The position numbers were made by a program, and so were the translations under genes. A DNA stretch of 64,000 nt, taken from contig NZ_FPKO01000007.1 in the NCBI RefSeq assembly GCF_900119385.1, forward strand, positions 372,001 through 436,000, written 5' to 3'. This document shows, piece after piece, positions 15,690 through 63,013 of the stretch. The notes under the pieces were generated by a model. The model ran no database searches. It was not told the DNA's origin and saw nothing but the letters and a program-made list of their open reading frames with translations. Position 1 is the first letter of the stretch; each line of letters opens with the position of its first letter. This stretch comes from Thermophilibacter mediterraneus (GTDB taxonomy: Bacteria > Actinomycetota > Coriobacteriia > Coriobacteriales > Atopobiaceae).

Positions 15690-16031
15690 CTTTGGGTGGC
15701 AGGCTCGCCCGGCGATTGGGTGGTGCGTCCTCGCTCCAACGTCCGCACCAAGGGGCGATTGGGTAGTCTCGTGACGCGCGTAAGCGAGAAGGACCCGATT
15801 TTGCATGAACCCCAGGCGATTGGGTAGCCATCTTGATGTTTCCCAAGCCGGCTCGGGCTCGACGGGCGTCGTTGTCACCCAACCGCTGGCAGTTTCGGGC
15901 ATTCTGGGGGTCCACGAGCGGTTCGAGCTCGTCTCGCGACGCGACTCCCTGAGGGCGAGCACCCAATCGTCGGGGCTTCTGTTCGAAATGAGGCTTCTCG
16001 GCCTACGCGCACATCGGGTTTACCCAACCGC
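15690..16031. repeat. CGATTGGGT repeat cluster 2
   Basis: This gene-free stretch (15619-16224) holds at least six copies: plus-strand CGATTGGGT at 15713, 15756 and 15817, and minus-strand copies reading ACCCAACCG at 15877, ACCCAATCG at 15961 and ACCCAACCG at 16022. The 15817 copy continues AGCCATCTTGATGTTTCCC, matching the downstream part of copies in the other clusters. GAGAAG or its complement lies about 23-26 bases upstream of two copies. The cluster abuts the predicted nuclease gene. Confidence 0.75.
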
Positions 16032-16102
16032 ATGGAGATTGTGGACAGCCTGCACGCTCGCGCGCGTGACGACACCCGCCCTTGGGGAGCGCCCCGGTCC
16101 GG

Positions 16103-16131
16103 CGGGGGTGCGGGGCGCGTTCGCACCCCCG
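16103..16131. other. GC-rich hairpin
   Basis: CGGGGGTGCG (16103-16112) pairs perfectly with CGCACCCCCG (16122-16131) around a 9-base loop, between repeat cluster 2 and the nuclease gene. No U-run follows. Confidence 0.55.
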
Positions 16132-16224
16132 CCCCGCACCAAGGTTGTGGAATGTGCGTGAACGCGGTGACGGAGCCGCCCCCACGTTCTTCTCGCTTGG
16201 GCCCAGTTGCTTGAAACGACGTCT

Positions 16225-17439
16225 ATGAGCTGGGTAAACGTGGCTTGCACGAAGCGTTCGCCATGCTATCGGCTCGCCCCGTCGGCACGGGTCCCCCCAA
16301 GTGCCTACGCTTTCCGTAGAGAGGGAGGGCGCCGACGCGCTGCGCGACCGCGCCCGTGCGGGGCTTCGACGGGGAGGGGACCAGTCTCTTTTAAGTTTGC
16401 GAGCGCTCGGGGATTCTGGCGGGGCGTCGGGCACCGCATCGCGGCCGACAACCCGGCGAGCGATGAGGTGCCGACCCTGCTCGTCAGGATTCTGTTTCAG
16501 GGAGGGCCGGGCATCGACCTCGGGTCCATGCCCAAACGGTCCCGTCATACGGGGGTCCCCGCGCGCGTCGCCACGGCGGGCGTCGCGACGGTTCGCGCGG
16601 GTCATCCCGAGCTCGGCGACGTCGTCGACGTCTGCGTCTCGACCCAGGCGGCTCGCCACGAGGTGCGCTCGGCCCGGGTCCACCTGGTGACGGGGCGCTA
16701 CCCGACGGGGTCGCTGTATCGCGTGCGCGAGGGGGCCGTGGTCGTCTCCCCGGAGCTGTGCTTCCTCCAGGCCGCCTCCGAGCTCGACGTAGACCTGCTC
16801 GTTGCGTACGGGTACGAGCTCTGCGGACTCTATGCCAGGGACGGCGCCGGCACCGCGACGTTCGCGAACTGCCCCGCCCTCACCACGCGGGCGAGGATTT
16901 CCTCCTACCTTGATCGCCTTGAGGCGCTGCGGGACGAGGACGGTCGGGGGCTTCCCCCGGGGGTCGCGCGGGCCCGTCGGGCGCTCGCGCGGGTTCGCGA
17001 CCGGGCGGCGTCGCCCGAGGAGGCGGTGTCGTCGATGGTGCTCACCTACCCGCGGCGGCTCGGGGGCTTTGGGCTTCCCGAGGCGAGGATGAACGAGCGC
17101 GTGCGCCTGGGCGCCCCCACCTCGAGACTCTTCGGCATCGACTCGTTTGTGTGCGACATCAGCTGGAACGGTGGGCGCAACGTCGTCGAGTACCAGGGCT
17201 CGCAGCACAAGTCCCGCTCGCGCGCGAGCTATGACATGCGCAAGGGAAACGTGCTGGTGGCGGACGGTCGCACGCTCACCCAGCTCGATGCCGGGATGCT
17301 CAAGCGCCAAGACCGCATGGAGGAGGTCGCGAAGGCGGCTGGGAGGGGCCTCGGCATCCGTTGGCGCGAGCCGAGCGCGGAGGTCAGGCTCAGGCAGATC
17401 CTGCTGAGGGGGAAGCTGCTGAAGGACCTCGGCATGTAG
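16225..17439 (+). CDS. Predicted nuclease-fold protein (DUF559/Vsr-like C-terminus)
   Basis: The C-terminal 100 residues read FVCDISWNGGRNVVEYQGSQ then HKSRSRASYDMRKGNVL, the D...ExQ/Y pattern of DUF559/Vsr-type PD-(D/E)xK nucleases. The central part has VVVSPELCFLQAASELDVDL and GYELCGLYAR, a region I recall from multicopy, uncharacterised Coriobacteriia proteins with an AbiEi-like upstream half. The start is unresolved: the frame opens at TTG 16207, the first ATG is 16225, and neither has a good ribosome site. A second frame starting at 16301 (MPTLSVEREGADALRD) resembles a natural N-terminus, so a frameshift near 16.43 kb is possible. It is flanked on both sides by CGATTGGGT clusters. Confidence 0.6.
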   Translation: MSWVNVACTKRSPCYRLAPSARVPPSAYAFRREGGRRRAARPRPCGASTGRGPVSFKFASARGFWRGVGHRIAADNPASDEVPTLLVRILFQGGPGIDLGSMPKRSRHTGVPARVATAGVATVRAGHPELGDVVDVCVSTQAARHEVRSARVHLVTGRYPTGSLYRVREGAVVVSPELCFLQAASELDVDLLVAYGYELCGLYARDGAGTATFANCPALTTRARISSYLDRLEALRDEDGRGLPPGVARARRALARVRDRAASPEEAVSSMVLTYPRRLGGFGLPEARMNERVRLGAPTSRLFGIDSFVCDISWNGGRNVVEYQGSQHKSRSRASYDMRKGNVLVADGRTLTQLDAGMLKRQDRMEEVAKAAGRGLGIRWREPSAEVRLRQILLRGKLLKDLGM

Positions 17440-17524
17440 CGCGGGGCCGAGGGCTCGGTCGAGGTGCGGGGCGGCAAGCGACCCAAAGAGCGGCGGGCGG
17501 TCCGGAGGGCGGCGGGCAGGAATT

Positions 17525-17750
17525 GCCGATGATTGGGTATTGCGGGGCCGACGCGCTCTTCTCGCCGTCGATTTTGTCAAGATCGCCCCATGGTTGGGTG
17601 CCCATGATTATGCACCGCTCGCCAGTGCGTGCGCGAAAGCACCCAATCGTCGGATATTCTGGGCAAATTGCCGAGAAGGGCGCGTGGTTGGGTGGATGTC
17701 CAAGCGAGCGCGCGGGGGAAACATAAAAAGTTATGCCCAATCGCGGGAGG
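17525..17750. repeat. CGATTGGGT repeat cluster 3
   Basis: Five copies between the nuclease gene and thrB: plus-strand GATTGGGTAT at 17531, TGGTTGGGTG at 17591 and TGGTTGGGTG at 17685; minus-strand ACCCAATCG at 17641 and GCCCAATCG near 17735. The 17641 copy shares its flank with the cluster 2 copy at 15961 (CCGACGATTGGGTGCT on the minus strand). The 17735 copy reads into TTTTTATGTTTCCC, like 15817. TTCTCGCC (17559-17566) lies 24 bases upstream of the 17591 copy. The rest of 17440-17900 holds no gene. Confidence 0.75.
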
Positions 17751-17845
17751 TTTGCGCCGGCGAGCGTCTCGGTCGCCGGCGGGCGCCCTGGTCGGAGACG
17801 TCGCGCGGCGCTCCGCGGGGACGCAGGTGACGTCGCGCGATGCAC

Positions 17846-60085: not shown

Positions 60086-61396
60086 ATGTCCAACAACGAC
60101 AGCTACGGTGGCTTCGGGAGCGAGATGCGCTGCTCGTTCTGCGGCAAGACCCGCAGCCAGGTGAGCAAGCTCATCGCGGGCCCCGGCGGCGTCTACATCT
60201 GCGACGAGTGCGTCCACGCGTGCTCCGACATGATCGACGAGGCGGAGTTCCCCGATGACGACGAGGCGCTCGAGCTCGAGGAGGGGATGCCGCCCATCAA
60301 GGACCTCCCCACCCCCCACGAGATCTACGACGAGCTCTCCCAGTACGTCATGGGGCAGGAGCAGGCCAAGCGCGCCATGAGCGTGGCCGTCTACAACCAC
60401 TACCGCCGCATCCTCTCCGGAAACGACGAGGTTGAGGAGGGCGCCGAGGAGGTCGAGATCGCCAAGAGCAACATCTTGCTGCTGGGCCCCACCGGCACCG
60501 GCAAGACGCTGCTCGCGCAGACGCTCGCCCGCTTCCTCGAGGTGCCGTTTGCCATCGCGGACGCCACCACCCTCACCGAGGCCGGCTACGTTGGCGAGGA
60601 CGTCGAGAACATCCTGCTCAAGCTCATCACCGCCGCTGACGGCGACGTGGAGCGCGCGCAGGTGGGCATCGTCTACGTGGACGAGATCGACAAGATCGCC
60701 CGCAAGGCCGAGAACCTCTCCATCACGCGCGACGTCTCCGGCGAGGGCGTGCAGCAGGCGCTCCTCAAGATCCTCGAGGGCACCGAGGCGAGCGTGCCCC
60801 CGCAGGGCGGCCGCAAGCACCCCCAGCAGGAGCTCATTCGCATCGACACCACCAACATCCTGTTCATCTGCGGCGGTGCCTTCGTCGGGCTCGACAAGAT
60901 CGTCGCCGACCGCATCGGCAAGAAGGGCGTCGGCTTTGCCGCCGAGGTCGGGAGGAACGCCGAGAAGGACGAGGACTACCTCATGGGCCAGGTCATGCCC
61001 CAGGACCTCCACAAGTTCGGCATGATCCCCGAGTTCCTCGGCCGCATCCCCGTGATCACCGCGACGCGGGAGCTCACCGAGGACGACCTCGTCGCCATCC
61101 TCACGCAGCCCCGCAACGCCCTCGTCAAGCAGTACAGGCGCATGTTCGAGCTCGAGGGCGTCGAGCTGGTCTTCGAGGACGACGCGCTCGTGGAGATCGC
61201 GCGGCAGGCGCTCGAGCGCGGCACCGGCGCCCGCGGCCTGCGCGCCATCTGCGAGGCCACGCTGCAGGACACGATGTTCGACCTGCCGAGCGACCTCGAC
61301 ATCACCAAGGTCATCGTCACCAAGGAGAGCGTCGGGGGCGGCGCGAGCCCGCGCCTGGTCACTAAGGCGCACGGCAAGCACCACCTGGAGGGCTAG
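60086..61396 (+). CDS. clpX: ATP-dependent Clp protease ATPase subunit ClpX
   Basis: 436 residues. N-terminal zinc-binding domain with C16, C19, C39, C42; AAA+ with Walker A GPTGTGKT at 134-141, [12 protein letters not shown] Walker B, and pore loop GYVGEDVEN. Unfolds and feeds substrates to ClpP. Immediately downstream of clpP. Confidence 0.97.
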
Positions 61397-61419: not shown

Positions 61420-61460
61420 GCGGCGCGCCCGGTGCCTCGAGCCCGGGCGCGCCGCTTTTT
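61420..61460 (+). terminator. Terminator after clpX
   Basis: GCGGCGCGCCCGG (61420-61432) pairs with 61443-61455, followed by T5. Confidence 0.92.
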
Positions 61461-61523
61461 GTTCGCGGCGATGCCGTGGGGCTGGCGCTTGGTTTGGGAG
61501 CGCTTGGTCCGGAGTGCGCTTTG

Positions 61524-61816
61524 TTCTTCTCGGCCGTTGCGCGGGGGGAGTTTGGAGCGCTTAGGAATCCGCGCCCGTTTGCGATCGGACGCGCGCCCCT
61601 CTTCGGTCCTTCTCGCCCGCGGCTTCCCGTTCCCTCAAACGCACGGGGGTTTCTATGCACCGAGAAGAACGGTGGTGCAACGGCAGAGAGAACGTAAGCA
61701 CAAGAGGAATCGCCGCCGCGTGCGACGCGCTCCGAACCGGAGGCTTGACGCACGCGACGCAAACGGGCGGGGATTCCTAAGCGCCGCATCCGCCTCCCGC
61801 GCAACGGCCGAGAAGA
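61524..61816. repeat. Element with ~60-bp terminal inverted repeats
   Basis: Left arm 61524-61583 and right arm 61758-61816 are inverted copies: TTCTCGGCCGTTGCGCGGG, a variable patch, then GCGCTTAGGAATCC and CGCCCGTTTGCG, with few mismatches. The 174-base centre (61584-61757) has no gene, but contains another small inverted pair (TGCACC ... GGTGCA) and TTCTCGCC at 61610. It resembles a MITE or a large hairpin element between clpX and the glycosyltransferase. No target-site duplication is obvious. Confidence 0.8.
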
Positions 61817-61888
61817 GCTAATCATGCACCTTGGGGGCGTGCCTCGATGTACGCATATCCGTTATTTGAGTCGAGGCCTGGCCGCAAT

Positions 61889-63013
61889 TTACAGGTTGGA
61901 GCCGCCGAGGTTCATGTAGGTGGTGATGATTGCCCTGCGGCGACGCGTGCCCGCGGGGCACACCTTGTCGAAGGCGGGCATGATGCCCTTGTAGAGGGCG
62001 ATGACCTGCAGGCGCTTGGCGAGGCCGGCAGCCGACGCGCGGGACTCCTCGAGCTGGCCGCGAATCTCGTCGAGGTAGGGGGAGCGCATGGCGTAGTGCC
62101 AGAAGAGGTCGGCGCGGTCCGCGTCGGGGTAGAGCCAGGGTCGGTTGTCCGGTCCGGCGAAGTGGATGATCGCGGGGTCCGCGGCGGCCTGCTCGTACTC
62201 CTCGCGCACGTCGGCCGGTGCGTTGGCGACGATGTGGGTGCGGCGCAGGTGCTGCCAGTCCATGAGGTAGTTCCAGCGCATGTGGACGCGCACGTAGTTT
62301 CCGTTGACGACCTTGTTGAGGACGTCCTGGTCGAGCCAGCGCCACATGCGCTCGGTCGACAGGGCGAGGAACTCCTCGGGGGTCACGGTGCGCCTGAGCT
62401 CGGCGAGGTTCATCAGCAGAACGCCGGCCTGGAAGTAGTCGTGCGGGTCGCTCATGCCGAGCTCGTGGGCGAGGTAGGGTCCCACGGTGGCGTCGTACCC
62501 GTCGATCTGGCCGATGGTGTCGGCGTCGCGCGTCGCGGCGAGCGGGTAGCCCGTGACGTCGACGTCGAAGAGGGCGGCAACGTCGTCGTCGACGATGAGG
62601 TCCGAGTCGAGGTAGATGGCCTTGTCCACGTTGGGCAGCAGCTGCGGCGCGAGCAGGCGGTAGTAGGTCTCGGGCCGGAAGTGCCCGTGGTGGGGGAGCT
62701 CGATGTCGCCGAGCGCGGCGTCCACGTCGAGAAAGCCGATGCCGACGTTGTCGGACTTGGTCTGGCGCGTGAGCAAGATCATGCTCGCCGGCGAGATGTC
62801 GCGCGTGAGGACCACGATGTCGTAGCGACGGCTCGCGCTCGCGTTCTCGAGGATCGACTGGATCGCCACCGAGAGGTACGGGACGAAGTTCTCGCTGCAG
62901 GCGAAGACGATGACGACGTCGTCGAGCGGCAGGTCAAGGTCGCCGGAGGTGCTCGCGAGCATCGTGGACGAGAGCGGGTTTCTCACGTGCGTTGTCTTGC
63001 GCAGCGGCTTCAT
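61889..63013 (-). CDS. Glycosyltransferase family 8 protein
   Basis: 374 residues. Nucleotide-sugar site VVIVFACSENFVPYLSVAI, metal motif D136-S137-D138 in KAIYLDSDLIVD, acceptor region NYLMDWQHL and HFAGPDNRPW typical of GT8 LgtC/glycogenin-like enzymes. Likely adds a sugar (glucose or galactose) to a surface polysaccharide; acceptor unknown. The C-terminal 60 residues are basic. Its 3' end runs close to the inverted-repeat element. Confidence 0.9.
   Translation of the reverse strand: MKPLRKTTHVRNPLSSTMLASTSGDLDLPLDDVVIVFACSENFVPYLSVAIQSILENASASRRYDIVVLTRDISPASMILLTRQTKSDNVGIGFLDVDAALGDIELPHHGHFRPETYYRLLAPQLLPNVDKAIYLDSDLIVDDDVAALFDVDVTGYPLAATRDADTIGQIDGYDATVGPYLAHELGMSDPHDYFQAGVLLMNLAELRRTVTPEEFLALSTERMWRWLDQDVLNKVVNGNYVRVHMRWNYLMDWQHLRRTHIVANAPADVREEYEQAAADPAIIHFAGPDNRPWLYPDADRADLFWHYAMRSPYLDEIRGQLEESRASAAGLAKRLQVIALYKGIMPAFDKVCPAGTRRRRAIITTYMNLGGSNL

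Follow-up and report, generated by a model that had tools for sequence, protein, structure and literature searches.

The window in our study, meaning the whole stretch of DNA that was analysed, comprised 64,000 nucleotides of Thermophilibacter mediterraneus (contig NZ_FPKO01000007.1, positions 372,001 to 436,000 of the forward strand). It was found to contain a non-coding element made of repeated boxes, from position 61516 to 61825, between clpX (60086–61396, + strand) and a glycosyltransferase-like gene (61889–63013, − strand) that is convergent with clpX. Both genes, as well as a terminator-like hairpin of clpX (61420–61455, + strand), were located outside the element. An earlier note on this DNA had described inverted arms of about 60 bp with few mismatches and no clear target duplication, and both descriptions were confirmed. 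A repeat search gave two arms at 61520–61583 and 61758–61821, each of 64 nt and 86% complementary, separated by 174 nt. The ungapped inverted match comprised 55 of 64 pairs, whereas 200 dinucleotide-preserving shuffles of 61460–61880 reached a maximum of 42 and a mean of 35 pairs. The BLAST alignment of arm with arm had an E-value of 1e-14 at genome scale, and the RNA fold z-score of the element strand was −7.5. No direct repeat of at least 6 bp flanked the element, and hence no target duplication was present.

Each arm contained two boxes of about 26 bp, the starts of which were 41 bp apart, and two more boxes were present in the centre. The unit is a non-palindromic box of two types, u1 (GCGCTTAGTTCTTCTCGGCCGTTGC) and u2 (GCGCTTAGGAATCCGCGCCCGTTTGCG), as defined from the copies in the same genome. 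The + block contained box 1 (type u1, GCGCTTTGTTCTTCTCGGCCGTTGCG, 61516–61541) followed by box 2 (type u2, GCGCTTAGGAATCCGCGCCCGTTTGCG, 61557–61583), which started 41 bp past the start of box 1. The − block contained box 3 (type u2, degenerate, GTGCATAGAAACCCCCGTGCGTTTGAG, 61634–61660) and box 4 (type u1, degenerate, GTGCTTACGTTCTCTCTGCCGTTGCA, 61676–61701), 41 bp from box 3, followed by box 5 (type u2, GCGCTTAGGAATCCCCGCCCGTTTGCG, 61758–61784), 83 bp or 8 turns from box 4, and box 6 (type u1, ATGATTAGCTCTTCTCGGCCGTTGCG, 61800–61825), 41 bp from box 5. The whole solo array had the order ++/---- in a 41-bp register, with box starts at + 61516, + 61557, − 61660, − 61701, − 61784, and − 61825. 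The 174-base centre, which the earlier note had called gene-free, contained no gene; it carried boxes 3 and 4. A gapless alignment of 18 modules showed box starts 41 nt apart and an unconserved spacer of about 15 nt.

The host genome (2.37 Mb, 9 contigs) was searched by sequence, and the array counts rest on sequence-model and pattern searches. The model of the module detected 8 array clusters, and the element is not the single copy without relatives that the earlier note had allowed for. Relatives in the Atopobiaceae (genus Thermophilibacter) hold many arrays with species-specific box sequences. The pattern GCTTAG-(35,36)-GCTTAG was found 85, 65, 25, 23, and 17 times in several congeners vs. 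7, 2, 4, 1, and 1 times for the control, respectively. The gap between clpX and the glycosyltransferase gene was 64–202 bp in most congeners, 493 bp here, and 601 bp in Olsenella profusa An794, where it holds an array of its own box type. The comparison supports the view that the window element is an insertion relative to most relatives and a member of a dispersed repeat family. The same gap contained a different short repeat, pairs of TTGGGGACTGTCCCCAA, in other relatives (L116, L118, L121, L124, L126, L129, and L132); it is probably of the REP (repetitive extragenic palindrome) type. A gene for a cell-surface-like protein of 942 amino acids was present between clpX and the glycosyltransferase gene of Olsenella uli An820 (L112:7271–10099).

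About 50 arrays, detected with the GCTTAG seed and lags of 40–43 bp, were examined. Nearly all of them were intergenic, with the + block on the left and the − block on the right, and they were found also between tandem genes and more rarely between divergent genes. The identity across arrays was 0.56–0.72 in the boxes and about 0.3, the random level, in the spacers. The neighbouring spacers of the same strand were slightly alike (0.40–0.43 vs. 0.31–0.34, three genomes), and no complementarity was found between the spacers of opposite blocks. Inverted arms, membership of a repeat family, an intergenic position, and insertion relative to relatives would all be expected of a miniature inverted-repeat transposable element (MITE), as the earlier note proposed, or of the foldback remnant of some transposon. 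However, the copies had only the boxes and the box spacing in common, not the termini, the internal sequence, the spacers, which were random, or the length; the target duplication was lacking, and the helical phasing and the tracking of box type with a Vsr-like gene, both described below, also speak against this origin. The earlier note had suggested a genome search for the arms and for a transposase with matching ends; the search yielded the related arrays but no transposase with ends matching the boxes, in a genome searched by sequence and not annotated in full. The only gene found between two arrays was the Vsr-like gene. The MITE origin is thus disfavoured and very unlikely. The end of one array (C1:1062477–1062535; L010:1478–1536) contained tandem 17-bp repeats, GGTTCTTCTCGGCGCTT, built of box parts, and another array of the same, high-GC genome (C1:1023869–1023909; L013:1370–1410) contained a very AT-rich centre, TATATATAATATATATTA.

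The claim of a strict register rests on a scan with position weights and an unconstrained lag, because the survey of about 50 arrays used the GCTTAG seed and fixed lags. The same-strand spacing was sharply 41 bp (42 bp in genome G029). The distances from the last + box to the first − box were near 57, 67, 77, 88, 108, 119, 140, 150, 162, 191, 202, 212, 223, and 251 bp. The best period of these +/− distances was 10.35–10.4 bp (R = 0.90, n = 44, Rayleigh p ~3e-16), and none of 2000 jittered sets was as good; when only the distinct values per species were used, p was ~1e-11. Eight unrelated box families had spacings of 21–84 bp (21, 31, 41, 52, 62, 73, and 83) near multiples of 10.4, and every +/− distance in the window array fitted the register within 1 bp. 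Since the spacings and the +/− distances are locked to about 10.4 bp, the boxes are placed on a single face of double-stranded DNA. Judged from these spacings, the helical register is the signature of proteins assembled on the DNA duplex and does not fit a passive foldback or a hairpin-forming RNA.

The same observations bear on a large structured RNA, which the earlier note had also offered, or a bidirectional terminator or mRNA stabiliser. The fold z-score and the convergent gene pair at the site would suit such a role. However, the module showed no consensus fold, the spacers of opposite blocks were not complementary, no Rfam match was obtained (only tRNAs were found in the window), arrays occurred also between tandem and rarely divergent genes, and a phasing of 10.4 bp follows the DNA helix and has no role in RNA. 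We regard these RNA-level roles as highly improbable. A type III toxin-antitoxin system, in which tandem RNA repeats precede the toxin, was also considered and is not favoured: the arrays are present on both sides, inverted, dispersed, and helically phased.

A gene encoding a protein of about 360 amino acids (C1:683789–684871) was found to carry the same boxes as the window array on both flanks. An open reading frame of this size sits between two arrays in three species with three box types (G000, G006, and G010), and the arrangement was found in further species. A homologue search gave 5–15 matches per Thermophilibacter genome and more distant matches through the order. Nine of the 30 best loci adjoin GCTTAG arrays of the usual ++/-- form, and all seven other loci that were read by eye were bordered on either side by inverted arrays built of other boxes. 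A test of both flanks was used because scoring inverted repeats in general proved too noisy by itself (33 of 120 control flanks at z ≥ 3). In this test, a motif common to both flanks was found in 21 of 29 homologues vs. 17 of 120 control genes (p = 2e-9). The flank-to-flank inverted copies were up to 96% identical over 361 bp, spacers included, whereas an inverted match of at least 60 bp was found in 0 of 120 control genes.

The orthologues keep fixed slots (malQ-gene-mfd, glgB-gene-rubrerythrin, beside glnB, and beside an ATP-binding cassette (ABC) transporter; neighbours named by eye from their sequences), and their boxes differ. In 8 of 8 rows, the highest score of the solo arrays was obtained with boxes that flank the gene within the same genome or in a sister sharing its box type, and therefore the window array belongs with the gene at C1:683789–684871. 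The protein identity was 54% vs. 83% for the slot neighbours in slot A and 62% vs. 91% in slot B, which means that the protein evolves faster than its neighbours. From species to species, box sequence and protein vary in concert. When all homologue flanks were searched for k-mers, no universal box emerged, and the flanks had only neighbour-gene sequence in common. The sequence GGTTCTTCTCG was 3-fold denser beside array-associated genes of any box type than at control loci (1.52 vs. 0.50 per kb; flanks L214–L243), and it is possibly a shared host or cleavage motif.

The partner protein family contained conserved SPxE, PD, E/D-Y-x-G, H, and D..R residues. In 25 sequences, E179, D223, H244, and D253 were invariant and E/D238 was conserved. 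The PDB profile search gave a weak match to 3r3p, the Vsr-like homing endonuclease domain of I-Bth0305I (E = 0.011). Pfam MTES_1575, a Vsr-family restriction endonuclease (PMC3710099), was matched by 12 of 25 members, the best at 8.9e-8, and exceeded the cut-off in one distant relative. These matches place the C-terminal half of the protein in the Vsr-like PD-(D/E)XK group, for which DNA cutting is predicted. The most variable parts of the protein were residues ~20–80 and the C-terminus, and we infer that they set the box specificity. Like the Vsr, MTES_1575, and DUF559 nucleases and I-Bth0305I, the protein keeps the core E, PD, E/D-Y-x-G, H, and D residues; unlike them, its gene is not in an intron, has its own repeat arrays, and, within the short flanks that were inspected, showed no methyltransferase partner. 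In distant relatives, the middle part of the protein gave a weak AbiEi_1 profile match (E = 0.04 and 0.12). AbiEi antitoxins of type IV toxin-antitoxin systems bind inverted repeats and autoregulate (PMC3985639; PMC7319586), and inverted-repeat DNA beside the gene is a further likeness. In contrast to AbiE, the genes directly adjacent (malQ, mfd, glgB, rubrerythrin, etc.), which resemble housekeeping genes when judged by eye from their sequences, included no recognised AbiEii toxin, a nuclease domain is attached, and the repeats are found on both sides and in trans.

The closest parallel is the RAYT-REP/REPIN system, in which an IS200/IS605-related HUH transposase is associated with repetitive extragenic palindromes (PMC2817692; PMC3116915). 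In both systems a pair of inverted repeats encloses the gene, solo copies of the cognate repeat are scattered over intergenic regions, repeat and protein coevolve, the protein outpaces its neighbours, and the repeats are species-specific. The partner protein here, however, matches MTES_1575/DUF559 and not HUH Y1 (PF01797), the single repeats are not hairpins with a tetranucleotide (GTAG-like) head, and the multi-box arrays keep strictly to the helical repeat of the DNA duplex. The system works like RAYT-REPIN but departs from it in two defining features, the enzyme class and the hairpin unit. The boxes might themselves be a REP/REPIN family mobilised by a RAYT (HUH Y1) transposase, since RAYT genes were present in 28 of 31 congeners and the genomic pattern is similar. 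This is contradicted by genome G019 (99% complete), which was rich in arrays and contained no Y1 transposase (PF01797), and 12 RAYT loci were found without such arrays; we give this origin almost no credence. The enterobacterial bacterial interspersed mosaic elements (BIMEs) likewise consist of intergenic repeats that are clustered at regular spacing and occur in both orientations, but they alternate in orientation, whereas our arrays consist of one + block and then one − block in strict helical register. A CRISPR (clustered regularly interspaced short palindromic repeats) array would be marked by cas genes and by unidirectional, identical repeats; the repeats found here were degenerate and in two opposite blocks.

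From the box, the register, the symmetry, the partner gene, and the co-change described above, we conclude that the element is probably a solo array of double-stranded-DNA recognition boxes of a Vsr-type gene-plus-repeat system that resembles REPIN/RAYT, in which binding and spread are the deduced steps. The protein would bind to the boxes and form an ordered oligomer with two-fold symmetry along one helix face, and it would control its own gene through the flanking arrays. Its nuclease activity, together with host repair, may have spread or rebuilt arrays at other intergenic sites, as is thought for RAYT and REPINs. The window array would then be a dispersed site of this kind, retained because the cognate protein still recognises the boxes.

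Several points weigh against this explanation. No two arrays had spacers in common, and thus the arrays were not simply copied whole or pasted as units; for this reason seeding followed by in-register tandem duplication is a more likely origin, and growth by tandem duplication with selection of the boxes fits equally well. DNA binding, cutting, and movement are attributed to the protein from sequence, and its fold assignment rests on the weak PDB and MTES_1575 profile hits. A single-sequence AlphaFold model of a paralogue encoded in the window was unusable (predicted local distance difference test, pLDDT, 34). The gene cognate to the GCTTAG-type arrays was not found in G029, and 12 of 19 and 15 of 18 distant paralogues in two sets were without a detectable flank-to-flank repeat.

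A serious rival is that the boxes are operators or architectural (bridging or insulating) sites of a domesticated nuclease-fold DNA-binding protein without mobility, where the array number changes through local tandem duplication and loss and the boxes drift with the protein. The inheritance of the genes in fixed slots, the likeness of same-strand neighbouring spacers, which points to tandem duplication, and a helical phasing suited to looping or bridging all agree with such non-mobile sites. However, arrays occur where most congeners have empty sites, the flanking arrays can be near-identical inverted copies, spacers included, and the nuclease core residues are kept. We consider non-mobile sites a possible but rather unlikely explanation.

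A second gene-plus-box example was found in the window at 15800–17752, in which the paralogue of the array-associated Vsr-like protein (16468–17439, + strand, start uncertain; weak DUF559 match, E = 0.037) has its own box, CACCCAATCG, on either side. The upstream flank (15800–16040) contained CACCCAATCG-like boxes of either orientation near 15818, 15878, 15961, and 16021, and the downstream flank (17516–17752) contained CACCCAATCG-like boxes near 17531, 17590, 17640, 17685, and 17735. A genome of the same order and another family (G097; L194–L197) contained a distinct converging array family, GTTGCTAAGCAGATNTGCCACCAAG, with a + block and then a − block.

In other actinobacterial classes, the genes of distant relatives of about 310 amino acids were often enclosed by a matching pair of repeats (7 of 9 loci), as a rule palindromic. 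Outside the Coriobacteriia, matching flanks were found for 10 of 20 genes vs. 1 of 380 control pairs, and the repeat differed per locus. One distant genome (G272) contained a flanking palindrome of about 60 bp, with 2 flanking copies and 14 further matches elsewhere. The repeat association is common and not universal, because many distant paralogues in the Coriobacteriales were without such flanks at the thresholds used. No relatives were found in viral contigs, and the plasmid records gave one match, in a 900-kb Collinsella record.

No description of these arrays or gene-repeat pairs was found in the open-access literature. We see an even chance that they represent an undescribed gene-repeat class across the Actinomycetota. 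Members of such a class would pair a Vsr-like nuclease with phased converging arrays of recognition boxes that coevolve with it, and the nuclease would surround its gene with these arrays and seed solo arrays over the genome, a second and independent RAYT-REPIN lifestyle on double-stranded DNA. Were this the case, a large and uncharacterised MTES_1575/DUF559-type family of actinobacterial proteins, with up to 15 matches per genome, would acquire a target and a function open to experiment, and numerous intergenic repeats of gut Coriobacteriia that lack an explanation would be accounted for together. The RAYT-REPIN way of life, the origin and benefit of which are open questions, would then have arisen also with an unrelated nuclease. 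Box and protein change rapidly and in step, which provides a natural series from which to work out a new DNA-recognition code, and a model of the assembly can be tested directly thanks to the helical register.
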